Assembly (NCBI GenBank): GCA_930367215.1
Contig: OV884057.1
Coordinates: forward strand, 109,021,284 to 109,085,283
Source: Pollenia angustigena
Taxonomy: Eukaryota > Arthropoda > Insecta > Diptera > Polleniidae
Direction: 5' to 3'
DNA length: 64,000 nt
Position 1 is the first letter of the stretch, and the number at the start of each line of letters is the position of its first letter. The position numbers and the translations under genes were made by a program. Shown one piece after another: positions 8,850 to 53,680 of this stretch. The notes beneath the pieces were generated by a model. The model made no database searches, had not been told where the DNA came from, and saw nothing but the letters and a program-made list of their open reading frames with translations.

Positions 8850-8937
8850 AAAATAAATAGAATAATCTAGAGAAGTTTTTTAAATGTAAAGTAAATTTAA
8901 GCGTGTGTCGCGAATAGTGAAATATAAATCAAATAAG

Positions 8938-22400: not shown

Positions 22401-25400
22401 ATAAAAAAAGAAAAATCTCTCTCATTATCTCATGTGTTTTGTAAAAACAAAAAACAATTAAAATACTTTTATACAAGAACTAATATAGCAAAAGTTTTTT
22501 TTTATGTTTTTAAACACGAATAAAAAAGAACACAACAGTGTATGAAATTTTTTATTCGTGATCATGAGTGAATAGTGAATGAATATTCGGAACTCTGCCA
22601 ATAACTCCACTTAATAAAAACAATCCTAAAAGAATAATCGGTAAAGCCCAAACACCATAGAATTTACACCCGAATTTTCGAGATTTTACCCTATTTGGAA
22701 ACGATGGGCAATCATCGTTATGTGAAGAGGTTTAAATTCATATAAGAGTTATTATTATCTGGATATTAACATTCATATGAATTGTTTTTTCTTAAAGGGA
22801 TTTTAGGGACGCACAGTGACTGAAAATAGTTTTTCACTGGCCAAAATTCTGTAACTTTTGAACCGAAAGAGATATTTTAGTGAAATTTTTTTTAATCGAC
22901 AGATAGATTCTTAAACTTTTCACCACTTTAAATATCATTTCATGAGTAGTTATTAGGGAATTTAAGGGCAAAGTGGAACTTTAGAATTTTTTAACTTAAG
23001 CGTGAAATATTGTTGACCAGTTAAGATGCCTTGGCGTATTTATTGATAATCGACTTACTTTTTCTGATCGTATCGACCATATATATTTCAGAGTATCAGG
23101 GATTTTGCGAGGGATATATTCAAATAACATTTACCTACCGTATTGTATTAAAAGAAAAATTGCTTATGCTTTACTGAGGCCGCATATTTTGTATGGTCTA
23201 AAGATTGTGTCTGGTACTTCAGCTCTCCAAACTATTAGATTAAACCGAATGTTGAACACTGTTGTTAGATATGTTTATAATGTTAGAAGAATAATGCATA
23301 TTTCTGGCTATGTGAGAAAATTTCTTGGATATAGCTTTAAACACTTTGCTTTATACCGCAATATACTATTTTTCTACAGAGTTCTTAGGAATGGTTATCC
23401 TACTCAGCTTTGCTCTGAATTTCTACAAGAAGTCCACAAATTGTTATTCCCAAGATAAGATGTAGGTGTTTCGAGAGGTCTTTTCTTGTAAGGGTAGCTC
23501 GATGTTTGAATTGTTTGCCTAGAGATCTTCGCTTATTTTCCCACTCAAATAATGCATTTCGTTTTAAACTGTTGACATACTTTTCTTTTCGTTGAGCTAA
23601 CTTAATTTAAGTATCTCATAAAATTTTTTTTTATCTTTCGTGTTTGTGCTTTTAAATGTCAGTTTAAAATATTATATGTTCAAATTAAATTTATTTATTT
23701 TATTTATTTATTGCTTGTAATACAAAAAGCCTACAAGGCCAAAGCGCATTACTGGAATATTTTGTACATTTTGTATTGAAAATATTATAACATATAAAAT
23801 ATTATAATTAAAAATATTATAAACTAAAACAAAAACAAAATTTAAAGAATAATTATTCATGAGGTATTTAAGGTTTGCAAATTGTGTAATATTAATACTA
23901 GTATGCCTATAGTAATCCCTTAACAAAACAGAAACACTCCTAATGAATAAAGGGCAAAAGGAATTCTTTATAAAATTACAATTTCGGTTATGGGTATACG
24001 ATGCAATCCTTTAAAATTACAGTTTATTAAAGTAATATCCAAAAAGCTTATTAGTGAAGGCAAAAAACAAGAATCAGGTTTGTAAAAGAAAACTATATAA
24101 AAAGTTAAACTCTCCAGACCGACAATAACGTCCCAGCATCCTTCAACATAGGTATTTTCTACATTTCCCTTCATATGTACATAAACAAAAAAGTTAACAA
24201 TTACAAAAAATAACAATTACACAGAATTATAATTGCCAGATTCCTGTAGGTGTAGTAAAAGCCGTTTTTTAAAAAGTTCATATGATTAGAGAAAGTGCGT
24301 AGATCATATGGTAAAGTGTTCCAATATTTAGCTATCCTAATAATAAATGAGCGTTCAAAAAGGGAGCATGATACAAGAGGAATAATAAGTTGAGGATTTC
24401 TTGTAGATCTGGAAAATATAAATTTTGTATATAGTTCATTTGGTATATTATACCTCATTACTTTGTAAAAGAACAACAAAAAAGTTACAGCATGTGATAT
24501 ACTGTCTCTATACGCGATACCATAAACAAATCTTACAATTCTTTTAACAATTTGCTCAATTTTACGAAGATTATAGTAGGTTAGGTATGAGCAAGTATGA
24601 TATAGACAGAAAATTAGAAAGTAGGACCAATACCCCCCTTACAGTCCCCTCAACAGAAACAGCCCCGTTATTTCCCTGACAAACCCCAGTAGATTGGCCG
24701 GATTACATCCAGCTATGCACCCCAGTTCGTCGTGAAACCTATCTCCTAGCCACTTCAGTCTGAGACCCTGCATCCTAGGACAATGGCACAGTACATGCTC
24801 GATCGTCTCTAGCTCCTCCGAATCCTCGCATAGCCTGCAGAAGTCCGGTATGGCGTTGTCCCATCTGCCCGCAAAAGCCCTGACAGGACAATGCCCCGTC
24901 AAGAACCCTAAAAGTGTTCTGAGACTACCCCTATCCAATCCCAGTAGAACCCTGGTTGCCCCCGCGTCCAAATTGGGCCATAGTGCCCTAGACACCCTGC
25001 AATCCATTCTGCCCCTCCAGGATCGGTCAACGTCATCACGGAATTTCTCCCGTATCACCCCATAGTAGTAGCATACCCCCTGTCCCCCACCACTAAGTCG
25101 AGACCCGAACCTCCTCTCTTGAGTTCGTCCGCCACCTCATTCCCATCAACCATGCAGTGTCCTGGTACCCAACACAGCCTCACGTTGAATGCCCCCATGA
25201 GTTCCCTAAGAGCGTTCCTACACCGCGCAACCAGGCATGATCGCACCGTATGGCTCTTCAATGCCCGAAGCGCCGCCTGACTATCGACGTAAATTGTCAC
25301 CTCAGATCCACCCACGATGTGATCCAGTATCAACTCCGTCGCCCTCCAGATCGCTAGGATCTCAGCCTGGAAGACACTGCACTCATCAGGGAGTCTGAAT

Positions 25401-28400
25401 GACCTTTTTACCTCGGTGTCCGCGATATAAACACCGGCACCAGTGCCGGTTTCCATCTTGGATCCATCCGCAAATACTGCCCACCCCTCAAACAGTCCAT
25501 TGGATCCACTCCAAATTTCCCTATCCGGGAACTCCACTGGTGGTGTTGCACCGAAGTCCAGGGTCATAGTCTTATGATCCGAAATTCCCTCGAGAATAAT
25601 ACCCTGATCAAGCAGACCCATCTCGTACAAAATTCTCGTGTGATCATCCCGCCTAGGTCTAACTAAAGAAGACTCGTAAAGTCTAAGTAAGTTCCTAGCT
25701 GCCACACTCCTCACATAATGCTCGATAGGGGATAGATATAGTAGGATGTCCAGTGCTGCCTGCGGAGTGCTTCTCCTTGCGCCTGTGATGCCAAGAGATG
25801 CACTTTTTTGAACCTTGCTGAGCATCTTCCTATAGCTATCCACTCCCAATGCACCCCACCAAACAGTGCATCCATAGGTAAGTATAGGCCTAACAACCGA
25901 TGTGAAAATCCAGTTTACCATATCAGGCCTAAGACCCCAGTTCTTACCAATGGAGTTCCTGCATGTGTAGTATGCATTGAGTCCCCTTCTCATCCTCTCC
26001 TGAGTATTTCTCTTCCCAGACAGTTTGCAGTCCAGAAAGTTACCCAAGTACTTTGCTCCTTCCGATAGAGGCAAATCGACGCCATCTAGCACTGGCCCCC
26101 TAAGTCCCTCTATCCTATACCTTCTGGTCAATAGCACCAGCTCAGTCTTCGCAGGGTTAACACCCAGTCCCCTATCCTTTGCCCATGCCGAGAGTTCGCC
26201 TAGCATCACCTGCATAATTTCTCCGATCGTGGACAGAAATTTTCCCCTGACCAGCAGAACTATATCGTCCGCATAGGCAACAACTTTCCTGTCCATGGAA
26301 TCAAATGACCTAAGAATCCCGTTAACCGCAAGCAACCACAGTAGAGGCGATAATACCCCCCTTGTGGTGCCCCCTTGGTAACCCTCCTCCTTATCACATG
26401 ATCCCCCAGGCTCGAGTTTATAATCCTACTGCCAAGCATGCAGATTATCCATTCCACCAGAAAGTCCTCAACTCCCAACTCCAACAAAGAATCCCTAATC
26501 GCCTCAATCCTAATGTTATTAAAGGCTCCCTCTATATCCAGAAACGCGGCGAGAGTATACTCCTTATGCCTCAGACCGTGCTCAATACAACCTACCACCT
26601 CATGTAACGCGCTCTCAACAGATTTACCCTTCAGGTAAGCATGTTTAGCGTTGCTAATAAGGCGGGTCTCAATATTACTCCTGAGATAGAAATCTACTAG
26701 CCTCTCAAGAGTCTTCAACAAAAATGAAGACAAACTAATAGGTCTAAAATCCCCCGGTTTCGAGTGGCCTGCTTTACCGGCCTTGGGTATGAATATCACC
26801 CTGACCTCTCTCCACCCCCTAGGCAGATACCTCCTACTAAAGCATTTCCTAAATATATCCACCAGCAGAAATGATGCATCGTCCGGGATGTTGCAAACCA
26901 TAGCCGGAAAAATACCATCCGGACCCGGTGATTTATATGGGTCGAAAGTATTGACCGCCCACGCCAGCTTATCCCTTGTGACCATTTCATCGACGCAAGC
27001 GGAAGTATGAACCGATGTCACGGACATGGCGTCCCACTGACCGTCCTCCATACTACCGGTTTCCCTGCACCCGGGAAAGTGCGTCTCCATAAGTAAGGTT
27101 AGGGTCTCAGATTTAGACTCAGTCCATGAGCCGTCATTTCTTTGGATATAACCCAGGGCCTTAGGGTCCTTAGATAAAATCCGTCGGAATCTTGACAGCT
27201 CGTTGACATTATCGATGAACGCACAAAATTGCATAAACGATAGTCGCTTTGCTCTCTTCAGATACGCCTTATACCTGTTGAACTGCACCCTGTGATTGTT
27301 CCAATCATCTGGTGCTCTCGTAAGCTTGGCCCTATTAAACAGTCTCCTCACCGTAGACCTTTGAACATGAAGTTCCCTGGTCCACCATTTAGGCTGTTTA
27401 CGCCTACCCGGAAACGTAACCGGGCAGGACTGCTCATAGCTTTCCTTTAGAAGATGAGTGAACCTATTCACCAACCCCTCCAGATCCGTCGGCAGCAAGT
27501 CGCCCAAGGCCTGATGCGCCAACCCAGTTCGGACCCCTTCATTGAAGGAGTCCGATTTTGTCCCCCTCGGGTTCCTGAATGGAGCAGCGTAGATAGGTCA
27601 AAATTCAGTGTGAAGGTAATACGACTATGCACACTGTAAGGTTTTAACATTTTAGCTTATCAAAATCCAATTTTTTGTTTGTTTTTTTTTTTTTTTTAAT
27701 AATTTTTACTAGAATTGATTAATAACAATCCCAACTACATTTAATTGCATTTGGAATTAAAAAAATTAACAGCGTTATGCAGTAACAGCACCTTAAACTT
27801 CACTGTAATTGCAGACTATTGCTAGACATAAGCAAGTTAAGGCGCGTAGCCCAACTTTGAATGGTTGTAACTTTTTTATAAAATGCAATATCTTTATGAT
27901 TTTTTTTTTATTTTGTAGTTTTGTATATTTTTTATTAATTAATTAATCAATTGTAAATCACGTGATCAGAATAAAAGTTTGAAGGTTTTTAAATATATCT
28001 CTTTTTAGAAGTTATTTTGAAAAATATTTTTTTTCATTGGACATAAAAATATATACACAAGCAAGCACAAGTAGTCGCATTATTTGCATCAGATTACCTA
28101 TTTTGTCTTCTTTCTGAATCAACCAAAAAAATCTGCCCCAACTTGCCCCCCCCCACTATTCCCGATCCAAAAACTGATCATGAATTCTTGTATTTCGCGC
28201 CAACAAATTTTTGATGTTTGGCTGCTTGCAGAAAAAAAATTAAAAATGTCTGCGTGTATTTGAATTTATTTTAGGAAATATTAGTACTGGTTCAAAACAA
28301 ACTCTTAATTTGCAAGAAATAAAACTTTTTTCTCAAAAAATTTGCGCACAAATAAACTCAAAATGACAAATATCGAAAAGAACAAAACTTCGATTTTTGA

Positions 28401-31400
28401 AAACAAATACTGGTTGGTTGACTCTAGAGATTGATTTATCACAATTTATTTGTGATAAAACCATTGCTTCCATGAGGGCTCAGAAGTAACAAGAAAAAGG
28501 AAATCAAGAGAACTTTTGAATACGGTTGATCATAATCAGTTATTTATGGCAGCCGAAATGAAAATGCACTTAGATGGCAAACGAACTTCGGCCTCAATTG
28601 TTCGTGAGCTTACAACTGCTGCTCCAAAAAGGGGAACACTTTTACAAAAAAGTAGAATTGTTTCAGATAAGCCCATGAGCCTTTCTGCTGATAATAGATA
28701 TCGGTTTATCTACACATGGCTACCAATTCTTGAGACAACATACATCGTCTATTAACTCTGAAATGTTTCCCTGTTATGATTCTATAAAAATTTCCTAGCG
28801 TGCATGTTATCCAAATGGAATAACTGTAACAGTATCATTCGCGAATGTCAGCCTCCAATCACTTATTGACCATACAGTCTTAAGACTTTGTTTGGCCTTG
28901 AAGGATACATTTCTTTTGATAGAAGATGATTTTAATGAGGTGACTTTTAAGATCAAATGGGGTTGTGACGGTGCTGACCATAATCGTTACAAGCAATCAT
29001 TTTCTCAAGAAAATATTTCTGACGAGAGTTTGTTAAGCATATCTATGGTCCCACTTGAAATGTCTTTAGAAAAAATTGGTTACAACCATAAAACAATAAT
29101 TTGGAAAAATGCTGCACCATCGTCAACTAGATAGATATTGTCGGCCTATAAATTTTTTTTGTTAATTGGTGCGTTTGCATTTAAGGTAACGAGATATGCA
29201 TGGGTAATGTATTGTTTGATTTTCCCCAATTGTCCTACTCAAGATAAGGCAATCTTACTATTAATTATAAACCAATTTAAAAAAATTATATGTTATCTCT
29301 TATGGGAAGTGGACGTGACAATTATCCAATTCCGCCTATTTTTCTACAGAAGTTGTGTTGTTAGTCATATATTACTTGTACCAAATTGCGTGACTGTACC
29401 TTTATTTGTTAAAGAAATATGCAATTTTGATCAGCTAGAATGTTAAAACCTCACACTGTGCTATGGTCTGAAAAAGTACAGTCCGTTGCTACCCTCCAAT
29501 CAACAACAATTTGCTCGTCACGGTTTACTTATGTCAGATCTATCACTGCCTGCCTATCTTTATTTCTGAACGTCGGCGTGTTACCCATATAACAGATAAT
29601 AAGATTGTTAGTAGTTATAAAATCAAACATTAACTCACCTCTTTTATTAATATCGGCACTCCCCCATTGGCTGTGATGAGCATTGGCATCCAATGAATTC
29701 TTGTTACCACAGTTGACAACCTTGACTCCCTTAACCCAGTCCGCACCATTGAAGGATACGTCCTCCTCCTTGCCTTTGAAAACTGCCAGCTCGTCGATAC
29801 GCCTAGCCTCTACTAGCTGCCATAGCTCGGCACTGGTCCTCCCATCCGGATCATTCCGATCTATGACAGCCACCTGCAGATGACCCTCCAGACTCGTCGA
29901 CTTCTTCATTCTTTTATTCGATGAAGAAGGCTGCTCATCCCCAGATCTGACCCTCTTAATGGTCTCCTTATTGGAGCCATTAGGAGCTTCAGCCGGAGAT
30001 GTACCAGCCCTCTTCACTGTGCTAGGTGACTCCGGTACGACTGGTTTCGAAGGCCCGTTCCTGCCCGCGCCTTTTCCCCTAATGACCCCCTTACGAGAGC
30101 CACCAGAGGAATCGGACGGAGGATTACCAGCCTTTTTCCCCGTGTTCGCTGCCTTAGCCACTTTGCCTCCTTTCTTGGGTATCGCCCCCTTATCCTCCGC
30201 AGCTCGTTCCGAAGACATGAGCGCTTTGGTCACCGGGGCAACCCCTCCTTCCTCTATCTCTCCACGGCAGGTTGACGGCGCCACCGGCCCTGTACTCTTT
30301 TGAGTAGTTTCCGGGTCGGCGACCTCATCCACCAGCTTTCTCCAAGGATAGGGCCAACCGAGCACGGTACTGACAGGGCCGTAAATTCTTTCGAATTTAG
30401 CGACGCTTTGTCGGTGCCTTCTCAGAAGGTGCCTGTCCCTCGCGGAGAACGTTGAAGGATCCCTCTTCGCCATCTTATCCAGATATGCAAGAGAGCTCCT
30501 TGTTTCGTTCTGCGCCTTCTCCTCCTTCGTTCGGCTGGAGTTCTTAATATCTCGTGGAGGGGCGCTTGGCCCGTCCTCCACGGCATCCTGCCGAACAAGT
30601 TGTGGACAGTCTTCTCCCGAGTGGCCCCTCTGATGTCCCCTGGCCTCACAGATGAGAGTGGCAGGCTCTGCAGTCTGACTGTGAGCTGATATATCAATAT
30701 CAAGCTCCGTGTCGGAGAGCAGAGTCAACCTCTCTAACCCCTGAGTAGCCCCGGTTTCACCACTGGAGTCACCCGATAGTACCAGAAGACTATCCACATA
30801 CAGGTCGGTCAGTACCTGTCTCTCCTGCTCAATTATGCTTTCATTAACAGTCAAGAGGGTACTCTCCGACTCAGAGACCATGACGTCCGACTGACCCTGG
30901 TCGGTCTCGTCCGTCGTGTCTTCATTTTCCGTTTCATTTTTATTTTTATGTATCCTGTTATGGTTTTCTTTTGTTTTTTGTAAAAAGGGTTTCATTTTTG
31001 TTCCCACGAGTAGGCTCGTTCAGACGGACCGTACCACGCAGTGACGGCGTGCGTGGACTAGGCAACTAACATACAACAGCGCTTTTCCCTGACGCTGAGG
31101 GGAGCTGTTAACGACTAGTTTCTTTACGCACTAACTAGCCACACAGGACCTCGGCACTGCTACCAACCACGTTGTCCTTAAAAGTGCATATTTCGCGCCC
31201 CAACCACTGGTAAAGCCCCCACCTTACAAGGAGCGAACCCACGGGTTGCCACGTCATGTTATATGTACTGATAATGGTCCGAAAGTATACCATTCACCGC
31301 CGCCTCATTATCTTGACAAGATGAGTAACCTTTATTTGCACACCCCTTCAGTGTTCTCGACCTCCCGCGAAGACGTATTCATCACATACATCATCCCAAG

Positions 31401-34400
31401 AGATCAGAACCGTAGAGTGCACTTAAGCCCTCGCATCTCGACAAGATTGTTACCCAGCACAGAAAAAAATAAAAATTGATTTCAATTAAAAAATTTGTGA
31501 TATTAATTAAAAAATTAATTAAATTTGCACCAGTAAACAAATTAATAGTATCAATTTAACCAGTTAATAGTATTAATTAAACGTTTAATTTACTTGATTA
31601 AACGTTTAATTCAGTTGATAAAATTTTTAATTAAAACTGATTTATTTTTTGATTAATGCTTTAATTGGTGAAAAATTTTGGAGAATTTTTTCTGTGTGGC
31701 GAGGGTAAGATTATAGTAAAAAGTTCCAGTAACTACCTCAATGCAATAATTTACAAGAGACATTAATAGTGAATGTGTAAGAATATACTTAACTCTAACT
31801 GGAAGATATAGACCACAATGATAAAGTCTCCTGAGTCCAAAAGTCACTCGAGATGCTATGGTATCAATATGCTCGTCAAAATTAAGATATTGATCAAGTA
31901 TAACACCAAGGCACTTAATAGAATTAGTGTATGTTATGATTACATTACCAATTTCAATCCTAGGATGAACAACATTACGGTGCCTAGTACGGAACATTAT
32001 GGCTTTAGTCTTGGATATATTAATCAAGAAAGAATTCGACACCATCCAGTCATGCAGTTTAAGGAGATTTAAATTAATAACTGCCTCCAATACGTCAGGA
32101 AATTCTCTACAATTTCCAAAAAACAGTTGTATATCATCAGCAAAGATGAAAGGTTTAACTAGGTTCATGTCCAAACAATCAACACAATCGTTTAAATATA
32201 AAAGAAACAAGATGGGGCCGATAATTTAACCCTGTGGCACACCACAACAATTCGGAATAACCATTAAAATCCACAAATTGAGATCTGCCGTGTAAATAAG
32301 AATGGATAAGCCTACACGCCATAATAGAAAACTTAAATTTATCTCTCAACTTGTAAATTAAAGTGGAATGATTCAAACGATCAAACGCTTTGGACAGGTC
32401 TAGAGAAACCATAACACAATCTCTATTATTATTCAAATGTTCTCTGATGCCATCCGTAATTCCTAGAAGCATACCCGTAGTGTTGTGTTTATCCCTGAAA
32501 GCAAACTGTGAATTCGAAATTAAGTTTTCCCTCGAAATATAGTCAATAATCTGAAACTTTAGCAAATGTTCCATAATCTTGGATATGACCGGTAAAATAC
32601 TAATTGGGCGAAAAGTCCTACTCGAGTCCCTCTTAGGTATAGGGACAGTCCTACTTAATTTCCATTGATCAGGATATGTAGAATTCATTATAATTATAAT
32701 ATATTTGTCATATTTAAATATAAATAATTACTTCGCATATTCATACACTTTGGGGCCTGGTTATTATTGTTATTTTATTACTAATATTGTTTTAGGCTGG
32801 GGAGCCAACTCGTAAATAATTTTAAGTTATAGTTATATTGTATGTATAAATTTATTTTTTTTATTAATTGTGCTTTAATTCAGAATATGAATTTACAATT
32901 GCAATATATAATTTTTGGCCTCCTAGGCTTTTTATATTACTTGGACTGAAATAAATAAATTTTATTTTTTTAACTATTTATAAATGTCATTTTTGGATTT
33001 AAATAATAATCATTCCCATTTTTTGTAATAATGGGACACTCAAAAAAATTAAATGTTTACACTATAAAAAAATTTTAACATTAAAAACAAATAGTAAAAT
33101 CAACTGGATATTTTGCTATTATTACTGAAAAATTAACAATTTTTTGCTTTTAAATTTGTTTACACTTAAAAAACTTTAGAAATATCTAAAATCTTGCTAT
33201 TACTACAGTAGAATCTTTTATTTTTTGCTGTCAAATTTGTTAATATTAGCAAAATAAATCCGCTGAATTCTGATTTTTTTTTTTTAAATTTTGATACGAA
33301 AATATAGGTGTTTATTTTTTGAATATTTCTTATTTATTAAAACATTTCATACATATGTAGATAAAAAACCTTTTAAAAATAAAAGCAGCAATAGATAGCT
33401 TTTGTAACAATGTCAGTTTCTGTTTATTATTATTTTTTACTTATACAATGTCTGTCTTAGATCTAATGAATTATAATTATTGTTCATTTAATTGAAAGAT
33501 TGATTGCAAATATTCCATATTCTGTTCTGTGTTATTTCTGTTCTTTAGTAGTTTTTTGACTTCTTCATCTAAATCCCGATGTTCTACTTTCCATTGATTT
33601 CGAATACTGGAGATGAACGGATCTGACGTTGCCAATAATATATTAAATATATCTTCATTAGTGGAATTTCGTGAAATTTTGCTAACACTAGCTCTATAAA
33701 ATCTGTAATCCTTATTCCCTTTTTCCTGAGCTTCCAAGTGGCACCAACTGATATTTAATGCCATCTTCTCCATGATAAAGGATTTTGTGAACTGTAGCAG
33801 ACATATTTCTCCATGGTTACTTGGTTGTATATATTTTTGCAGTCTCCTTAGCAAAATCTCCAAATTTTCTAGAGTCAATTTCTTCATTGCATGCAAGTAC
33901 TTCTAGGATTATTTTAAATCTAAAAATGAGGTTAAAATCAACACCTGTTATTTCAGAATCTTCTTGCGGTATTGCCATCATTTGTATTGCCTGACCCTTG
34001 TTTCGACTGATCTATAATCAACCCAAATTTGCGATATTCATCTTGAACATGTTTCCTTTTTGAACTTCTTAACTCCTTGTTGGTTTCGTTGTTTCTTATT
34101 GATCCTGAAGATCCGAAATCCAAATCATAACTGATTTTAAGTATGTGTTTCATAAGTCGTATTCTTGCATGTAGTGGTGATAATCCAAATTCATATGCAT
34201 CAGTATTATCAAATGATTCAATGATAACTTCAATTTGCTGCCCATCTAAATCTAACTGTAATGGCTGTAGTATTGCAATTTGGGCCTTGATATCACTAAC
34301 TTCTTTGTTAATGGCATCATGAGTTTCATTTTTAAATTCAAATTTAATAGGTCTGCAATATTTCGTAGAAGATGGTGTCTCATTTTTCCAAATATCCTTT

Positions 34401-37400
34401 GTTTGCGTTGTACTAGTCTAAGTGTCCGAATCTTCCAAAATCTTTTTTAATCGCAATGGTACAAATGATACCATGAACATATCTGAGTCCGAAATATTTT
34501 CACATACTACTTGTTTGTATTGTTTTTGTCCGGATGAACCATCACATCCCCATTTAGAAAAAAACGAATTAACTTTGTGTTTCCATATTTCTTTAACTCA
34601 TTTCCTTTTATTGATTGTAGCAAGCGTTCGGCTGTGTTATCAAGTAGATATTGTAGTTGTACCTCTGCCGAAATGGATGTGATTGTAATAGTGTCCTTTA
34701 ATGGCAAACAGCCCATTTCAGCAGCTGTTATGTGATGATATGCTGGATACAGATTTGAGCCTTTTTTCAATCGCACGCAATCTGAGCTGAATATATTGCA
34801 GTTTTGTTAATTTCAAATCCAGAAATAATGCTATTCCTCCTCATTTGTGAATTGTTTTGCATCGCTCGGAGTTGGTATACTTTAAAGAATCCGTTTTGTT
34901 CTCAATGGACTAGCTTTAACGACCTTATAATGATATCCACTTTTGTCAATTGTTTCTGTGGTCGTAATTGATGTAGGAAAGTATCGTGAATATTTTCATA
35001 TCCGATTTCGTCATTGATATACTTAAGCTTCCGCCTCTTATATCTATCGCTACAGTTGTCCAGCGATTTTTGTGGTCTCCCACGTGTGTTTTGATTTGAA
35101 GTTTCTGAAGCGATCTGGACAGAAAGTTCGTTCTCTAACCAGTTTGCAAAGTTCTTATTAAATCTATCTTTGCTGTAAACAACTTTCCTGTATCGCTGTT
35201 TTAAATGTTTGATGAAACAGATAATTTATTTTCTAAGTCCAATTATATTTCAGTGCTATAGGAATTTAAGTTTCCTTTTTTTTCGAATGTAATTTTTAAC
35301 ATCTTCCTCGTTTTGTTTTTAAAATACTCTCCGGCCAATTCTTTATAGCAAAAGCTCTCCATGCTTTTATGAAAAACGTTGTTATTGCTCAGATATATTA
35401 TATCCACTAAATTTGCATCCGAATGTCATTTGCTTTTACCAAATACAGGTAGAATAAAAAGGATTAAAAAACTTAAAATCCTTTTATTTATATGCTATAA
35501 AATACCTGACACAAATTTAACAACGCATTGCATAGTTATAGGGACAAAGGATATGAAACATAAAAACAGATAAAATAAAAAGACCAAACAAAATTTAAAA
35601 ATCCCTTCTAAGGTGGGATTCACAATATATATACCTGTTTAGCGTAAACGCTATAATATGCTATAAAATACGCTAGTGTGAACGTAGTGTAACGGATAAG
35701 GATGAATAAGGGTAGCTATACGTTTTTCTGATTGTGTAACATTAGTTGTGTTCGAGAACACAAAAGTTTACTATTTTTTACTAAACTTTACTGCATTTTA
35801 CGAAATTGCGTTCGAGTACACAAAATGCAGTAAATAAGAACATAAATTGAGAGCGAAAAGTGACAGTTCTTGTCTGAGTATTTACAAATTTTTACTGCAG
35901 AAATTTTTGCAGTAAAATTAAGTAAATCAAAAAAACATGTTTCAAAAGGTAAACAAACAAAAGTTACAAATAAAAAGCATACAAACTGTGAAAAAATTGT
36001 TAAATAAAGAAAAGTTGAAATAAAAATTAAACCAAAACAAAAAGTGAATAAATATTAAGTAATTAAACCTGTTTGTGAAGCATTTATTTGGCTAAATACA
36101 AACTTTTGAAATTTTTTTTTTATGTTAATTTTTTAGAGTTGTAAAAGTGTGAAGTATTTGGGTACTTAAGTAATCAATAGCAAAAAAATTATTCATGTTC
36201 TTTTAAATAATTTAACCGGCTGCAAATTAGTAAAATCGAATAGAATAAAAAACAAACAAATATGAAAGATTACATAAAATAATTTGTTTGTATTTTCCCA
36301 AAATGTTCGTGTTATTAAAAGTATTTAATCGAGTACCGATAAGAAAACGAGTTAATTAATTTCCATCAGCTGTTAATTATTTTCCATCAGCTGTTGCCTT
36401 TATTTTACGAATTTTTACAAATTTTGCGTTCGCGTTTAAGTTTACTCATTTACTGCATTTTACTTTAAAAGTACTCAAACGCACCTATTAATAAAAATTT
36501 TTATATGTACTACCTGTATTATGTTCGATCACGATCAATTTTCCCTATATTATAAAATTTTTTTTGAAGACAATAGCACATGATTTATGTTAGTTCTGCA
36601 AACATTTTTGCGGAATAAAAAACAATTTAAAAAAAAAAATTTTTTTAGTAACTTCATTAAAACTACCTTTCTATCAGTGGTTTTAACTTCTTAATCCCTT
36701 TTGATCCGCAAAAGTTCTATTCTACTAAAGTTGAAATTTGACAAAAATATAGTAGTTTAGAATATATATCTTAACATCTCAAATATAAATAACACAATAG
36801 TTGCACATATTACTTTTTTAAAGATAACAAGACTACCAACCTAGCAAAAACGCTAGCAGGTCATTATCGCGGATAGTTTTTGTGCAATGATAATTTCTTT
36901 CGGATTAAATATTAAAACAATTTCTGAATTAAAAAAAAGTTGTGTTTAACAACATGGCACAACCACAATTACCAATATTTTGACCTAATTTTTTGGCTAC
37001 CTTATGTGTTTATTATTAAAATTTTTGAAATCGGTGACAAACAAAAATTGGACTTTTGGCCAATGAAATAAAATTTTCAGCCACTGTGCGCCGCAGTGTT
37101 AGCATATAAGCTTTGGGAGCTTGCCGTTTTAGCTTGGAAAAATAAAGCCGAAAATGCTAAAAACTTTTGTAAGAGTATGATAAAAAGGATTAAGGTAGCT
37201 AAAAAGAGCAAAGGAACGACACACCAAAAGCTAGGACCCAAATACAACAATAATCTCCAACTGCGGTCATAATTGTTCACACTCAGAACTTAATATTAAT
37301 ACCGTGTAAAATATTGTGAACACATATTTTTGGAAAAGTTTGTATTTTTAGGTTCTTTAAATGTTCTTTTTTTTTTGACTATTGCTGGCTTAAACGGCCA

Positions 37401-40400
37401 GTTGTATGTGGCTTGCTCCCGAGTTGGCACGCCAAAAAATTTATACGTTTTTACACCAAATAAAAAAACAAAAAACATTGTCCATCGGCTGGCCTTAAGA
37501 TGAAGTAATAAATAAATATAATTTCCAAGCAGATTGAGCCCATATCTACACCATATGTAAGTTAGTCTGTAAAAAAACTTTATGATAGGTATTCCAAGGA
37601 TTTTTATTTAAAGGCCGTAAATTTAAAAGCTAAATTTAAATCGTGTGGTAATACAGCACTACCCAGAAAAAAAAGACATGCAAAAGAAGTAGTAAATTCA
37701 TGGGTTCCGCGGATAATGCACTGGTTCTTTTTAGGTGAAACATGCCTGATTTAAACGTGTAATTGGCGAGCATGGGTTCACATTTAGGTAAACGGCTCGT
37801 CATTAAAAATATTGCTTGGAACCAATGTTAGTTCAGTGATAAGATCGGGGTTTTCATTGATCTGGAATATTAACTGAATTGAGTGTGAATGAAAAGCAAT
37901 GAATCTTTAATGATTTTAATACGTATTTTCATTGGTGCTGGAGTTAAAATTTTTATATGCATTATGGGAATGTATTATAAATTTCATTTTTCCTTTTGTT
38001 TTCCCTATGTAGTAGTAAGATTTTGACAACGGCGGGTAAATTTTACACAAACAAAATGCCTGTTGTTTTTTGTATTGTTGTAGAGGTAAGCAGACCTATT
38101 GGATAGGCCTTGATATACGCAATATAACAAATTTAAATACATATTAAAATTAAATGTATTTACATATGTATATATGTATTAAAAAAAATTAACTCTTTCA
38201 ATCCTAAAGGAATACCTAATTATAGAGCAATTCCATATGAAAGCGATCACCTTTTGGACGACCCCTCTCCGATTTTAAAATAAATAGTCTCAATCTATTG
38301 CCCAGCAAAAAAAAAATATGTACCTACATATTTTTTTTTTTTTTTTATAGTGACTGGTTTAGTGGTGGTGTACACCACTGTCATGTGAAAAATTGAAGAA
38401 TTCTTCATAAGGGACCTCATACTAAAGCGATCGCAACGAGTGATAGCTCGTTGGAAAGGTATTGAATCAGGCTTTAATTGAAAAATGAAATTTTCCTAAT
38501 TTTTCTTAGAAATTTACCTTTAAATTTTCCCATGAAAATTAAATTTTCCGATTTTCCACAGAAGCTCCTAAATGTTCCGGCTAATTTTTTTTTTTTTTTT
38601 TTATTCCTCATAATTTTTGCTTGAAGAATCAGCAATAAAAAAATGGGTCCCGACTCCTTGTTTGGACAGGAGAAGAGCATTTAAGAGACCACCTTGTTAA
38701 AAATACATTTTAAAAATTATTTTACAGTTAAAAATACATTTATGAAGAAAAAATAAATTTTTTTTTTAAGAGCCCCAAGTTTAGTGTGTAGTGAATATGG
38801 TCTGCCTGCCTTCACAAGATCGGCCATAAATCCATGGATAATAGCAGCATTGGCATGTAATGGCACACCAAACCCGACTGAGGCTACAGGTCATAAAATG
38901 TTTTGTAAATTTTTTAAATTACCAGGTAATAAATATTTCGCCTAAAATGACACGTGCAGAAACAAGTCATAAAACACGGATTTTCCATAAATATGGCGAA
39001 ATATTTATTACCTGGTAATTTAAAAAATTTGCAAAACATTTTATGACCTGTGGTCGGCTTATTGGCAGTAACCAATTAAGTCCCTCTTTAAAAAACATTT
39101 TATGACCAGTAGTTCACGCAAATTTTCCTATTAAAGAAAAGCAAATATCGCTTATTTTTTTTTACCTATTTTTTACCAAAAAATAAATATAAATACTTCA
39201 CACACTCTGATTCAAATTTCAGTTGAATACTAAACGTGAAAGTGTTAAAGTGTTTTTTTTTTGTAAAGTAAAGAGTGAAGCTGTAAAGACAATTTAAAGT
39301 AAAATGAATAAATTTTGCTGCAATCCGTTTAACAAGAGTGGACATCGTTCGAAAAAGATAAAAGTATTAAAATTAACTGGTGTTTCGAAGCGATACATGA
39401 ATGAATTAAATATACAATACGGTGAAGAAGCAGAATTCATTTGCCCCAAGTGTAAAATCGATTTGTCTCAACAAGCAAATGCATTGAAACAAATGCAGCC
39501 ACAATCCGAGAGTCAAATGACAAGTGAACAAAATGTTTCATCTGATAGTGAGGCAGACATTCCGATGGTCAATATGTCTTTGAGTCCTTTGAATGAGGCT
39601 ATTACCACTTTAGGTGAAACGCCTATTAGAAAAAGAAAGTTGCGAAGTGAAACATACAGGAAAGAGAAAAAAGGCAAGGTTATGAGTGCAATCGCGACAA
39701 TATTTGATGAAGGCTCTGATAACGAATACAGTCAAGCAGATGACGTTGATGACGGCAAACAAATGATTGAGCAGTTGAAAAGAAAATTCAATTTAGCGAC
39801 CACTTTTCCGGAGAAATATCTCATTTTATCTGTGCTGCCTCAATCATGGTCTATACGCAAGATTTCTGAACAGTTTCAAACATCTTTTTACATCGCGAGA
39901 AGAAGCAAAGAATTAGTTCGACAGAAGGGCATATTGGTGACTCCCACCAAGAAATTTGGCTCAAGGACCCTCACGAAGCAACGGTGAAATTGATTCAAGA
40001 TTTTTACTGCAATGATGACAACAGCCGCGCCTGCCCAGGTACACGTGACTATGTTATCACACGTGAAGATGGAGAAAAAGTACACAAGCAGCGCAGATTA
40101 TTATTATGTAATCTATCCGAAGCATACCATCAGTTCAATGAGAAATACCCAGCAGAAAAAGTGGGATTTTCTAAGTTTGCCATCCTACGACCAAAAGAAT
40201 GCGTGCTGGCATTAGACAGGCACGGAACGCATTCAGTCTGCGTTTGCATGTTTCATCAAAACATCAAATTAATCTTCTTTCCATGCAAGAAATTGAAAGT
40301 ATTTCACGGTGAAATTGAAACATATAGGGACCTCCTGTCGAAGTCGTTGTGCGCATACCCCACGGAAAATTGTCATCTGTCCAAATGCGACAATTGTCCG

Positions 40401-43400
40401 AAAGCAGATTCCGGAATTCATCGAGGAATTCGGATTCAAGTTGAATGAACTGAAGGCGCACCATTTCATATCCGAGATGCAATCGAAATTTCTAAAGGAA
40501 AGTAAGGAGAAATTAGCCCAAAATGAAGATAACGAACTACAGACCGTAAGCCTTGTTGTTGTCGCGGAGAGTTTAGCTCATAATTATGTGTCCGTTTATT
40601 TATTTCAAATGAAACTGTTTGAATTTTTAAGATCAAAATTCGATGCAATCGACAAAGTAACGTTTTTCTCAGACGGCGCGGCTTCTCAGTACAAGAATAA
40701 AAAAAATTTTTACAATCTTTGCATAATTGAAGAAGAACAAAACTGCAAGGTCGAGTGGCACTTTTTCGCGACGTCCCACGGTAAGGGCCCATGCGATGCG
40801 TTAGGGGGAACCCTAAAACGCATGGCGACTAAGGCAAGTTTGCAAAGGCCATATACTGACCAGATCTTAAATGTACAACATTTGTTTTCGTGGATTCAAA
40901 GCAAGGAAATTGCCATTAACACAGTTTTATGCACTCAAAAAGAACACGATGCCATGGAGCGACGAATTCAAAACAGATATAATAATGTCAAAACTATAAC
41001 TGGAACGCAAAAGTTTCATTGCTTCATACCAAATATTTCTGATATGTCAATTAATGTAAAGCGGTACTCTTCGTCTGCCGACGTGCTAAATTTAAAGTTA
41101 CTTTTATTTTATAATGATGCCAAGACAATTGAAATTTTTAATAAATATTGTAATTAAGTATAAGCAGCAAAATAAGAAAGATTTTTTCTTCATAAATGTA
41201 TTTTTAACTGTAAAATAATTTTTAAAATGTATTTTTAACAAGGTGGTCTCTTAAATGCTCTTCTCTTGTCCAAACAAGGAGTCGGGGCCCATTTTTTTAT
41301 TGCTGATTCTTAAAGCCAAAATTATGAGGAATCCAAAAAAAAAAAATTAGCCGGAAAATTTAGGAGCTTCTGTGGAAAATCGGAAAATTTTATTTTCATG
41401 GGAAAATTTAAAGGTAAATTTCTAAGAAAAATTATGAAAATTTTATTTTTCAATTAAAGCCTCAATACCTTTCCAACGAGCTATCACTCGTTGCGATCGC
41501 TTTAGTAGTTTTTTTTTTTAACAACTTTCAATGAGGTCCCTTATGAAGAATTCTTCAATTTTTCACATGACAGTGGTGTACACCACCACTAAACCAGTCA
41601 CTATAAAAAAAAAAAAAAAAAATATGTAGGTACATTATTTTTTGCTGGGCAATCGATTGAGACTATTTATTTTAAAATCGGAGAGGGGTCGTCCAAAAAT
41701 TTGCCAATTTTGATCGTTTTCATATGGAATTGCTCTATAGTGAAAAATTGAATGGGTGCATTGCATGTAATTTTTCATGGGTTCACTTATTTAAAATTTA
41801 TTCGAATTTTGGAACGCGTTGTTAATTCATTCAAGTAGTTAAGTGCTAAAGAAGTCATGAAAATATTCCTTCTACTTGAGCAACTTCAAAAGTTGAAAAC
41901 GTTACCCAGCAACGCGGACCGGGTCAGCTAGTCTATATGTATATATAAAAATGAAAAACGTTTGTATGTTTGTTTGTATGTTGGTTTATATACTCCTAAA
42001 ATACTGAACCGATTTTCCTGATTTTTTTTACAGTAGCATCACGTGAGCCCTAAAAATAAAATAGGCTACTTATTTTTTCGATAGGGGCAGGGGAATTGGT
42101 ACCCCCCATTGGATGCCAATATTAAATATCGCATATCTTAAGAGCCGCTCCACGCATTTTGTTGAACTTTTGGTAGTAAAATCTTCTGAGCCCCAAAATT
42201 GAAATAAAGTAGCATAGGGGAAGTGGTTTCCCTCATAGGACGCCAATGTTTAATATCGCATATCTTAAGAACTGTTATAGTGAGAATGTTCAAACTTTGT
42301 AGAAGTCACTCTTATGGTATACTACACTATTGAAAATAAAAATAAAGCGGGTAGGCGCAGGGGGATATACCTCACATAGGCTGCATATATTAAATATCGC
42401 TCAACTGAAGAACTATTAAATGGAGAGTCTTCAAACGTGGTTAAAGCTACTTTTATGGTAAACTATAAATTTCAATATAGAAATGGGCGGGGTAGCCAGA
42501 GGAGGAGCAGTACCCCTCATAGATAGCAATATTAATAACTGTGTGAGTGAGAATGTTCAAAATTTGCAGAAGTCACTCTTATGGTATACTACACTTTTGA
42601 AAAAAGAAATAAAGCGGGTAGGCTCAAGAGGGGAAGTACCTCCCATAGGATCCATATATTAAATATCGCTCAACTGAATAACTATTTAAGGGATAGTCTT
42701 CAAACGTGGTAAAAGCTACTATTATGGTAAACTATAATTTCAGAGGAGGAGCAGTACCCCTCATAGATAGAAATATTAATAAGTGCCGCTGCAAGCAATT
42801 TGTTGAACTTTTGGTAGTAGGATCTTCTGATCCCCAAAATTGAAACAAAATAGCAGCGGGGGAAGTGTTACCCCCCCTAAGACGCCAATGTTTAATATCG
42901 GATATTTTAAAAACTGTTATAGTGAGAATGTTCAAACTTTGTAGAAGTCACACTTATCGTATACTACACTTTTGAAAATAAAAATAAAGCAGGTAGGCGC
43001 AGGGGGGAAATACCTTCCATAGGATGCATATATTAAATATCGCTCAACTGAAGAACTATTAAAAGGATAGTCTTCAAACGTGGTTAAAGCTACTATTATG
43101 GTAAACTATAAATTTTAATATAGAAATGGGCGGGGTAGCCAGAGGAGGAGCAGTACCCCTCATAGATAGAAATATTAATAAGAGCCGCTGCAAGCAATTT
43201 GTTTAACTTTTGGTAGTAGGATCTTCTGAGCCCTAAAATTGAAATAAAATAGCAGAGGGGGAAGTGGTTCCCCCCATAGGACGCCAATGTTTAATATCGC
43301 ATATCTTGAGAACTGTTATAGTGAGAATGTTCAAACTTAGTAGAAGTCACTCCTATGGTATACTACACTTTTGAAAATAAAAATAAAGCGGGAAGGCGCA

Positions 43401-46400
43401 GGGGGGAAAAACCTTCCATAGGATGCATATATTAAATATCTCTCAACTGCAGTGTAGTTAAAGCAGTGTAGCGAAGCGCACCGGGTTAAGCTAGTACATA
43501 ATAAAATAGAAAAAAATGATTTTATTATTTAATTAAATTAATCCTCAAACCGGTTAAGTGTTTTCGGTTCCCCAACCAATAAAAAAAGAAAAACACAGAA
43601 AACATAAGATCCCAACAGTGTAAAAGCATTAATAAAACAAAGAAAAAATAGGGAACAAGTTTTATTATACATTTGTAAATACATATTTAATACACAAACA
43701 AATGCATATATAAACAAATGATTTTTATTAAATAATTAAGTGAAATATCCATCTAATAAAACGGTCAGTAATTAACCTTGAAGTTAATTACAAAGTATTC
43801 TTTTAAGTATTAGGCGGAATGCATTGTTAGAATGAGAAAATATTCTAAGTTCCAAATTTAATTTATTTGATGTTTTTAATATTATTTTTGTTAAATTATT
43901 TCGAATTACCATATGAATATTAATATGTAGTATGACTTATATTGATCTTATTTCAGTGAATAGGGAGGGTATTATGAGTCTGTGCTGAAGTGTGCATCAC
44001 ATACAAATATTTGTTTTCGTATACCGATCGACTTAGAATCAGTATCTGAGTCGTACGTGCTGCTGGCTGGTATCCAGTTGATCTTCTGCGCTAAGTACAG
44101 GTCGCAATTCTTAGGATAATTTAGTGAAAATAATCTGCTGATAACTTTATTAAAGTATTTTTATCCATTTTTAACACATACTTTAAAGGAATATAAATTT
44201 GCTTGTTGTTTTTTTTTTAATCATCTCAAACGTAATGTGAACGGCTTTGATTAACTAAATCAACATTTTGCTTAAACGCTTTTAAAACCCCAAGTGTGAA
44301 CATAGTATTAACCTCATAACATAATTTTGTTTTAATAGGTCCATAATTGCATATGGAACCTTACAACGGAACTCTTAAAATTTTGTCTGTAAATACTGTG
44401 GTGTAGGGTATCAAATGTTCGGAATTGAATACTTTCTAATTTGTTCTTTTTTGTAAAAGTTTTTTTTTATAATTAAACGTTAATTTGATATCAGGTGTAA
44501 TTTTATTACAGTTGGGTAATTTTGCCTCATCTGATGTGTAGTTTTGAATTTAGCTGGTGGTAGCACTGTGGCTACGCTTATTTGGTCAACTATTTATTCA
44601 GTGTGATCATAGCTTAAGTAGTTCTTATTATGTTTTTGAAATTTTGCTTTTTCGCAAGAATGCAACTTTTGGCGTGAATTCCTTAATTAAAAACCAATAT
44701 TAAAAACTTTCTCACTTAACAAAAGTATTCACCCTTATCGTTTAAAATACGCCTACGACTGTTTGGTAATAGATGAAAGGAAATAAATTCACGTTCTCTT
44801 TAATCTATTACCAAACAGTCGTAGGCGTTTTTTAAATACGCCAAACATGATATGGGTGATTATTTTTACTCATTTTTATATTCAAACATTAAAAATTTCA
44901 TTAATGTGGTGATTATAGAACACGAGCGCCTTACTCGTCCGTTCAACATACATTTAAAACAACATTTCGAAATTTATTTTTGTTTTTAATGTAAGTTGAA
45001 CGGACGAGTAAGGCGCTCGTGTTCTATAAACTACACATAAATTAGAATTTATGTGCTGTCTTCACAACACAAAAAAATTAATATGATAAACACTCAAAAA
45101 ACTGAGTGCTTTTCATATTAATTTTACTACACGTTCAATCACTTGTGTTGTGAAAACAGCATATTAATTTTATTGAAATGTCAACCTACAAATGCTGTTT
45201 ACTTGTTACGAGATAATAAAAAAAATATTCTTTTACAGGTGTTACTTTTGGTGATACGACCAAAACCATTTCTTCGCCAACACGTAACATTCAGAACACT
45301 GCAACTTTCGAAGAGATGCAGTTAATGAACAAGCCCATTTTCATATTAAGCACTGATAACGTTTCTATAAATGTTGTTATGGGTAGTGAAAATGGTCGAT
45401 TTTTTTTGGGAGGTCGTGATGGCTGTCTTTACGAAATATCATATCAAGCAGAATCAAGTTGGTTCGGAAAAAGGTGCAAAAAAGTTAACCATTCGCAAGG
45501 CATAGTTTCATATATTGTTCCTAGTTTTTTGAAAGTATTCTCGGTAAATATAAACATTATAAAAGAGATTTTTTTTTTTTTTAAATGTCAATTTGTATCT
45601 TCAGGAAAATGATCCAATTGTTCGACTAGCAATAGATAGTAGTCGACAATTGTTATATGTTTTGACCGAAAAAGGTTCGATAGAAGCATGGGAAATGGGA
45701 CAGGATTGCAATTCTATGCGTCGAATAGCCAGAGTGACGCAAAATGAAATTTCACAAAGTGCCGCAAACATCATAAAGTAAAAACGAATTGACAAATATT
45801 CAAACTATTTTTATGAATAACAAACATTTTTTTAGAACCGTAGATCCTAGTGTGTTTAAAAACATTAAATCAATTTGCCCATTATCGGTGGATGATTGTC
45901 AAAATCTTCATTTATTGGCTGTAACTCAATGTGGTGTGCGGTTATTTTTTGCCACCAATCCTCTTGCTGCGTTTCCAAGTTCAAATATTAACCAAGCACC
46001 CCTTAATCAATCTCAAATGGCTATATCTCAAAATTCTCCAACAAAAACGACACAAATTGGAGCTTCAGTGAGTTCCATAACAGCCCCAACATTACCACAT
46101 GGTCCAGCAATAGAGCCAAGAAGGCAACAAGGCTTATATCTCTTACATGTTAGACTACCGCCAGGCTATACGCCTAATACAACAATTAATAAACCAAAAC
46201 AAGTACATTCTGCCCATTATAACGAAGGTACTTTGCTGATGGTTTCAACACCCCAACAGGATCAGGATATTTTATGGTCTATAAGTTCCGCCCCTTTTCC
46301 GCATCGTCCATACTTAACTGAATCAACCACTGTTATTCCTTTGGACGGCATCGTCTGGAGTTTAGCAGAGATGCCTGATCGTTGTAAAGCACAACTTCAA

Positions 46401-49400
46401 TCTATACTGCGAAAAGCTCAGAAACCCAAAAAAGTTGTTTTACTAACAAACCAAGGAGCTCACATCATTTCACTTCTAAAGCCTGTCGATATATTACAGC
46501 AGTTGCTCATTGCATGCCATGGTCCACATCACGATGCAGTTAAAGCATTCTTTCAGGTTAAATCATAGGTTTTATTAACAAACAATTCCCTAACATTTGT
46601 ATTTTTTTTGTGTAGGCTCAAGGTGATCGTGAAGCTTGTGCTACAGCTTTACTTTTAACTTGTTCCGAACAATACCGTGGAACGGACTTAGCAATGTGGG
46701 CGGCTCAGGCATTTCTATTATATGGTGGGGAGCCAACATTTTCAAGTCAAATGCAAATGATCGGAAGTCTACAAAGTCCACGTGCATATTTAAACACACA
46801 AATTGGGTTGGATCAACGCAACTCTCCCCAAATGTTTATGTCTACACCAATGCCAAATACATCTAACAGTGGTTTTATTAATCGTGCACTTCAAAATACA
46901 CCTATACAAAGCCCATTACAACACTCGCAATATCCTTTAAGCCCAAGTATGAATTGAACATTTATTTTTTTTATTAAGGGAAATCACGATAGGTAGTGCA
47001 AAGTGTGCAAACGATGCAAATGCGTGCAAAAATACACACATTTGCACAACACAACAACAAAATGTACGTATTTTCAATTTGCTCTTTTTTACTTCGTTTG
47101 CACTAAAAAACCATGACCAAAGTTTGTAGTGCATATTTGCTCAGTTGCAAACAAATGTAAACAACAACATTTGACATATTAGCCGCCATATTGTTTTTAA
47201 GGAAACTTATAAATTGAACATTTTCGCAGATTGTTAAATAAAATACAGAATTAAATTTAAATTAATTAAAAAGAAAAAATTTATTTTAATTTGCTTGTAT
47301 ATAATTGTAAACAAATGCAGATTTTTTAGTGCTGCCAGAAGTTTTTAGTGTTGCCAGAATACATTTTTAGAAAAATAGCATATTTGCACAAAAATAAAAG
47401 TGGTATGCTCACGATCAATCATAATATACATTGCAAATTTACACATTGCAAATTTGCACAATGACCATCGTGATTACCCTTATTAAAGCAATAATACACA
47501 TTTAGATTTTCTTTAAATTTTAAAAACAAATTATTCAGGCATGTTCTGAAAATCACAAAATTTCATATCACATGTGATTTTAAAATCACAATTGTGATTT
47601 AAGGGTGTTTTGGAAACCACAAAAGTTTTAACTTGTTTTAAAATGGTGGAAAAATATAAGCAAGAAATCTTTGATTGGCGACCACTTGACCGACCAGTTT
47701 AAAATCACAATTATGAAATAAGTTTTCTTTCCAGAACACGTTTCTTGTGATTTCAAATCACTTTCACAAAAAGTGATTTTCAGAACATGCCTGATTACTT
47801 ATATTTTTAGTATTAATATTAAATTATTATTTTTTCATTTTACTAGTTTATAATCAGAATCCGTTTGCTGGATCCGGCATTGCCCCTATTAACGATATGA
47901 ACACTATTATTTATTCTTCCAAACATGATGGTTTGTATATATATGTCGCTCGTCTTTTACGACCTATTTGGAAAATTCGTTGTGTGGATGAGAATTTAAA
48001 TAGTAAACTAACTCAAGCGGATTGCACATTCATTTTGGAAGATTTGTACGCTCTTAAAAATTTTTTGGATGTAAACTCAGTTAATGATTTATCATGTAAG
48101 TTTTATACACTCCCATATATGCATACATACATGCATACACAAAACCCAGTGGAAAAAAGGGAGCAGTAAGGATGTCTCTAGAAGGCCTCTGTACTCCTTT
48201 TACAATGTACAAGGCGTGCTGGCTTTATTCCATACTCATATCCGCTCTCGCTTTTTTCGTAGTTACATAAGAATGGTAACTGGATCAAAAAAAAAAAATA
48301 ATCCTTTTGCTTTTGCTTTGGCAAAAAAAAAAACAAAATTACTCCTTCTCTTCTCATAGAAGGGAATGCGGAATGTGTATATCATCTTTTATACGGAGGA
48401 GCCGAGGCATTCTTTAGCAGTAAGATAAAAGTGGTAATTTAATCAAAAAAATTTTGATTCAATAACACTGTGTTAGTTCAAAAAACTGTCAAGCGGAGCA
48501 CCCGGCGGGTTAACCTTCGAGTACGCTGAATCCAGTGGCGTTAACCGTTTTTTTTATGTTGGCTCTTGTTTTTGATATACACCGTTATTTCGAAAATGGA
48601 TGAGGTTACACAACATATTCACGTAACTCAAAAACGGTTTAGTTTATTGAATTAACTAAAAAAAATCGATTTTTTTTTATAGTAACCAATATTAAGGGAT
48701 AGTTGCTTAAGTTTTTGCCAGCTAAAAGGTACTAAATTTTTAGTACATTTTTATTCGGAAAAATAGGAATAATAAGAAAAAATAAATAATAAACAAAAAC
48801 AATTGCCAAGATTCAAGAACACAATAATAAAAATTAAAAATAAAGCTTCTTTCACAATTGCAGCAACATTTTCTCTTGGTGTTCACAATAAAATTATTAT
48901 AATTTCATTTTAAATTGTTGCTGAAGTAGAAGCAGACTCAACTTTTAAAAAAACATTAGTACACTTTTGTTCAAAAAATGAAAATAAAATATATAAAATA
49001 CTTTGCGAAGAAATAGGATAGAAGAAAAAACGAAATTGTTGCTCCCTTTAAATAAAGCTCACACGCGGTTTGTGTAAATGTGGGCGAACTGCAACAGGAA
49101 CGTCGCCATGGTTTGATTAAAATAAAAATTTGTGCATATGCATATGGGCAGTTCCAGCGAAAAGTCTACTTTTTGTAACGTAACGCCAGAAGTAATTAAA
49201 ATTGTTTCTCAAAAAATGTTATATGTATAGTAGGGTGGCACTGAAGTGTATGAAAGAAATTTTGTTGCTGTATTTTTAAGAAGCCCAAGTGGATTATTGT
49301 GCTAATCGGTCTAGACAATAAATATAAAAAATTTGAGCGAAATCGGAGAACTTGTAAGTGCTGCCCCAAAGAGGTCAAAGGTCAAATTTCAGTAAATTCC

Positions 49401-53051: not shown

Positions 53052-53680
53052 GTAAATATAGCATTATTTTTTTTTTGTTCTATCATAGAAAAAAATATTT
53101 GGCACACACTCATTCACATCTACTATAAAGGAATTTCGGAAAATTTTTTTTTTTTTTTTTTTTTTTGGATATCCGCTTATCGCAGAAACTGTGTGTCATA
53201 GTACATACTATATCGTTTGCGTAATCTAGGTCGCTTAAGCTTCCATTCAGATTTGCTGGTTATGTTAAATTCTTAACATAATTGCACCAATGTCGACGCT
53301 TCCTGTATCGTTCTGATGATCCAAGTTCCAAATCCTTGGTTTTCATTCTAAAAATCGTCATCGGTGAATCGGATTAGTTTTCATTATTTGTAGAGGTTTC
53401 GGTTGTAGAAGGCCAGCTCATCGGGCTTACGCAGCCGATTCTGGTTAAATATCGCCTTGGATCGGTCCACAAAACTGTAATATGTTGACTTTATAAGATT
53501 TGTAAATAATTAGACAACTGACTTCTGTTCAGTTCAATGGTTCTTTATTGAGTGTTCTTGATTTCTAAAACGTTACAAGTAATTGCTTTATAATAATATT
53601 AACAGGGTTTATCTTATAATATATATTCAATTATACACTCAGCATAATAATTATACAACAAAAACCTTCTTAGCTAAAAG
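53052..53680. other. Intron stretch without a gene
   Basis: A long T run at 53140-53166. The stretch 53290-53480 is less AT-rich than its surroundings and, on the minus strand, could be a decayed retroelement, but I can identify no motif. Confidence 0.35.

Follow-up and report, generated by a model that had tools for sequence, protein, structure and literature searches.

The window analysed here, a stretch of 64,000 nucleotides (nt) from the fly Pollenia angustigena (assembly GCA_930367215.1, contig OV884057.1, positions 109,021,284 to 109,085,283), holds on its forward strand a 3511-bp element at 38225..41735, which is very probably an internally deleted, non-autonomous member of a young family of cut-and-paste DNA transposons. 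Its extent was set by genome copies, by alignment of its ends and by comparison with intact copies. We compared 41 copies, namely the window copy and 40 further ones fetched from the genome; 32 are two-ended and nine are without one recognisable end. The left terminal inverted repeat (TIR) of 530 bp (38225..38754, forward strand) starts GAGCAATTCC, and the right TIR of 555 bp (41181..41735, reverse strand) was found by alignment to the left end. A single alignment joins left-end positions 1-530 to 41735-41181 at 89% identity, and an inverted-repeat search returned five long arm pairs (46-178 nt, 91-100% complementarity) together with a terminal 29-nt pair (97%). A preliminary description of this DNA had proposed a DNA transposon with an unusual transposase and very long, conserved inverted repeats of about 540 bp, all of which we confirm; it placed the ends at 38223 and 41737, and the exact ends lie 2 bp inside each.

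Two perfect 14-bp palindromes in the TIR, at 38365..38378 and 38394..38407, are candidate binding sites; palindromes of half-length 7 occur there twice against 0.076 expected from base shuffles. An internal hairpin (38886..39051), also noted earlier, has 57-nt arms at 38886-38942 and 38995-39051 that are 98% complementary, and both arms are present in 38 of the 41 copies. Copy L027 is bordered on its left by CTACTGGTCATAAA, which by eye is similar to the hairpin arms; an independent short repeat may have given rise to the hairpin.

Upstream of the start codon, a TATA box (39188-39195) and a TCAGT initiator (39219-39223) form a candidate core promoter (39188..39223, forward strand), in which the T of TATA and the A of the initiator are 33 nt apart. 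This motif pair, with 22-26 nt between its members, is kept in 36/41 copies, in agreement with the promoter proposed before. The gene itself is broken over three frames of the forward strand. The first piece (39304..39987) encodes an N-terminal CC...CxxC module and a probable helix-turn-helix and stops early, the second (39870..40448) a Cys/His cluster in a different frame, and the third (40297..41157) what remains of an RNase H core. This last piece carries the D2 and D3 motifs at 40666-40698 and 40762-40797, while the first catalytic Asp is deleted. The Cys module and the two motifs read from the sequence earlier are thus present, spread over the three frames. A retroelement was set aside because the element ends in inverted rather than direct repeats and none of the three pieces matched a reverse transcriptase.

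Target duplication

The window copy is flanked on both sides by TATA (38221..38224 and 41736..41739). A script found identical 4-bp flanks in 29 of the 32 two-ended copies, and in L017, where it picked the flank wrongly, reading the flanks showed CATA on both sides. The word is mostly TATA, with AATA, CATA, GATA and TATT as further forms. Since TATA is palindromic, it might belong to the repeat itself; seven copies in which one non-palindromic word, directly repeated, flanks both ends (AATA in L010, L023 and L040, CATA in L017 and L029, TATT in L064, GATA in L065) settle the question in favour of a 4-bp duplication. Empty sites gave the same length. L009 and L038 are inserted at different positions of two copies of one host repeat, so that each holds the empty site of the other. 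When the flanks of L038 were joined minus 4 bp, they matched the uninterrupted sequence of L009 without a gap, and the score was 122.0 at 4 bp against at most 118.0 at 0, 2, 3, 5 and 6 bp. Comparison of the copies, suggested earlier as a check, confirmed common ends but replaced the supposed TA-flanked insertion by a 4-bp duplication.

These duplications bear directly on whether the element belongs to Tc1/mariner, Kolobok or piggyBac, for which Mos1 among the structural matches of the transposase and the TA contained in TATA could be cited. Tc1/mariner elements make TA duplications (PMC5199201), and we reject this assignment because the duplication measures 4 bp and not 2 bp. Kolobok resembles the element in its 4-bp duplication and its 5'-RR termini (GA in this element) but is TTAA-specific (PMC9587614), whereas the target word here is NATA-like or TATT. 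TTAA flanks none of the 32 two-ended copies and none of three short derivatives described below, so that Kolobok and piggyBac are rejected as well. Membership in any of the three is hardly credible.

Genome copies and internal deletions

A search of the 1.37-Gb genome, in which 40 of 750 candidates were scored, found at least 237 matching stretches. The 18-base terminus occurs exactly 467 times in forward and 459 times in reverse orientation, compared with 0 and 0 for a reversed control. In the internal region the copies diverge from their majority sequence by a median of 0.62% (0.34% for the window copy); the family is young and has multiplied recently. The spacing of termini was taken from the first 100 places listed, all on contig 1, among which 38 neighbouring pairs converge within 8 kb: five at less than 1.5 kb, three at 1.5-3.3 kb, 19 at 3.3-3.96 kb and 11 longer. 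The three shortest are internal-deletion derivatives which kept both ends and have their own duplications.

Compared with intact copies, the window copy has lost 1, 116 and 123 nt. The two larger losses map to 40401..40525 (forward strand) and the 1-nt loss to about 39973. The 123-nt loss, which eliminates the region of the first catalytic Asp, is found in 13 of 38 measurable copies and the 116-nt loss in three of 38, while the 1-nt loss is confined to the window copy among 40 measurable ones. By eye, the flanks of copies sharing these losses look unrelated. Nested in this way across separate insertions, the losses suggest that damaged copies kept moving and hence that the enzyme was supplied from elsewhere. 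The spread of one identical deletion of a catalytic residue would be a clear example of non-autonomous copies that persist beyond the enzyme they once encoded. A two-ended sister with both large deletions, L048, lies about 250 kb from the window copy on the same contig, which could reflect a local hop or chance.

The success of the 123-nt deletion could also have another cause. While their frame was still open, the deleted copies might have produced a catalytically dead transposase that represses the intact ones, as KP does in P elements. Indeed, the deletion preserves the frame, costs the protein its first catalytic Asp and reached 13 of the 38 copies, and the deleted copy L019 keeps an open frame of 641 amino acids. 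However, deleted and other copies show similar damage (on average 1.31 versus 1.43 frameshifts and 0.85 versus 0.93 stops), and only one of 13 is free of frameshifts and stops compared with four of 28 others. We see no sign that the shortened protein is under selection, and further breaks interrupt the gene in the window copy. We therefore rejected a repressor role as the principal explanation and regard it as improbable.

Under the preferred interpretation, a cut-and-paste transposon mobilised in trans, the transposase from intact copies would bind the inverted repeats of about 550 bp, possibly at the two 14-bp palindromes, excise the element and insert it at AT-rich sites with the 4-bp duplication. 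Copies without the first Asp, the window copy included, would be moved by the same enzyme.

The transposase and its relatives

A full-length open frame of 682 codons from stop to stop is present in three of the 41 copies (L012, L014 and L025); two copies were read out and encode an intact protein of 680 amino acids from the start codon. L036 has no frameshift or stop over its aligned span and is without a right end. In the intact protein, a Cys/His (zinc-like) cluster and a predicted RNase H catalytic domain follow the N-terminal Cys module and the probable helix-turn-helix. Structure prediction thus yields the RNase H fold that was to be looked for around FSDGA. Within this predicted core lie the three aspartates (DDD) D453, D537 and D578, conserved in 78/79, 79/79 and 79/79 aligned sequences, which probably form the catalytic triad. 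The structural matches include Mos1, and sequence identities in the structural table, which also contains retroviral integrases, are 7-15%. Foldseek additionally gave one viral match (2.4e-4, TM-scores 0.11/0.23) with phage RNase H models just below, which we used for the fold only.

Sequence searches returned 682 relatives at E <= 0.001, and named ones come from a sponge, a rotifer, insects, a starfish and a hagfish. UniRef names those in Patiria, Brassicogethes, Bemisia and Rotaria 'Cc8L18.2-like', the name given in the preliminary description. Many relatives carry a C-terminal beta-rich domain that the window element lacks. Pfam, NCBIfam and PDB sequence searches with the three pieces, as proposed earlier for a check, and with the intact protein and alignments gave only below-cut-off or chance-level matches. 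Alignment A1, run against viral contigs and prokaryote genomes, gave 13 and 18 pattern matches, respectively, none encoding a relative, and literature searches by protein name, by motif plus 'transposon' and by DUF7869 found nothing. The transposase is a member of a protein family that is widespread in animals and has no entry in the libraries searched. An uninformative protein name thereby becomes a testable transposase; its young family offers the defined ends, the defined target duplication and the open genes that a transposition assay requires.

One link to a catalogued family leads to DUF7869 (PF25273), examples of which in the same genome are L049, L055 and L058. In the L049 type the motifs D-x-A-x-N, DNCxxQNKN and GHTKFxPD follow the same order as the corresponding motifs of our element. 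BLASTP of this protein against L049 gave E 9e-5 in a single comparison, and hhalign of the core profiles gave a probability of 74%, E 2.7e-5 and a score of 40.1, compared with a maximum of 29.4 over 200 column shuffles and 14.0 for a reversed profile. This core alignment spans D2, D3 and the C-terminal motif, not D1. PF25273 itself did not match our transposase: it was absent for P0121 and five relatives at E <= 5 and from the families listed at E <= 0.1 for 62 relatives. The BLASTP and core-profile results point to a catalytic core homologous to that of DUF7869; weaker results are given below.

A genome search for DUF7869, with 150 of 656 candidates scored, gave at least 149 matches. Copies L055-L059, from two DUF7869 families, are TIR transposons with ends of 37-44 bp, in contrast to about 550 bp in our element, and have ATAT on both sides in 5/5 copies; this flank is palindromic and leaves the duplication length unfixed. 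The ends of copies L049/L050/L054/L060 and L061/L062 were sought and not fixed. Three 3.08-kb copies (L055, L056 and L057), 99.9% identical over about 3.08 kb, have the same 613-codon open frame, and their element was apparently active very recently.

Placement and neighbouring sequences

The published features of Sola suggest that our element is Sola-like and, rather probably, a member or division of that superfamily. In the portion of PMC10741241 dealing with it, Sola is described by a DDD transposase, 4-bp duplications, TIRs of 11-1124 bp and hosts that include animals. The element shares the 4-bp duplication and has a conserved DDD triad in a predicted RNase H core; its TIRs of 530 and 555 bp fall inside the described range, which is so wide that this is weak evidence. 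AT-rich duplications of the form AWWT are given for Sola2 in an excerpt of PMC3627910, whereas the preferred word here is mostly TATA. The DUF7869 elements may themselves be Sola. Although the transposase is as unusual as the preliminary description held, its view that no standard superfamily has this combination is doubtful because DDD, 4-bp duplication and TIR range all fit Sola.

The 'Cc8L18.2-like' clade could alternatively be a separate cut-and-paste DDD lineage at superfamily level, with DUF7869 and perhaps Sola as distant homologues, distinguished by NATA-preferring 4-bp duplications, the N-terminal Cys module and a Cys/His cluster that precedes the RNase H core. The number of its relatives, the absence of matches above cut-off in Pfam and NCBIfam and of PDB sequence matches, the empty literature searches by name and motif and the only remote similarity to DUF7869 are in line with this proposal. 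Nevertheless, the DDD triad, the AT-rich 4-bp duplication and the TIR length lie within the range given for Sola in the cited parts of PMC10741241 and PMC3627910. Moreover, Sola1, Sola2 and Sola3 are themselves described as distinct subgroups in a section of PMC4455052, which also names E < 0.005 as its criterion for transposase convergence. We thus consider a separate lineage possible but unlikely; if it were one, a superfamily spanning sponges to vertebrates would be missing from the protein-family libraries searched.

Several results weigh against our interpretation of the element as a Sola-like cut-and-paste transposon. Movement is deduced from sequence comparison. Two of the 32 two-ended copies have no exact duplication: the flanks of L026 differ by one base (TATA/TATT), and L027 is without a clean right end. 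The reverse empty-site comparison also peaks at 4 bp but only half a point above 0, with indels elsewhere. With Foldseek alone, no PDB structure matched at E <= 0.001, and Argonautes headed the ranking. Whole alignments link the protein to DUF7869 only weakly (29%), as does the comparison with the L055 type (5%, three sequences), and the likeness to Sola is to published descriptions and not to sequences.

The window contains further mobile sequences. An open frame of 1347 amino acids at 8890-12930 (forward strand) with Copia gag, integrase and RVT_2 domains is, judging from these matches, a near-complete coding region of a Copia-type long terminal repeat (LTR) retrotransposon. Non-LTR retrotransposon pieces lie at 17595-18437 (forward) and at 25058-27597, 29532-31019 and 31656-32727 (reverse); three have RNase H, RVT_1 or endonuclease/reverse-transcriptase matches, and 31656-32727 was judged by eye from its frames. 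Two similar sets of open frames on the reverse strand, about 22 kb apart (33480-34417 and 55930-57651), share KYIQP and further motifs and are possibly another repeated element; two pieces of these sets scanned against Pfam gave no match. Directly to the right of the element, imperfect direct repeats of 45-142 nt, belonging to several families, lie at 42089-43000. Farther downstream, exons matching Nucleoporin_N and Nucleoporin_C (45220-46565 and 52432-53052, forward strand) presumably belong to a Nup155-like host gene.
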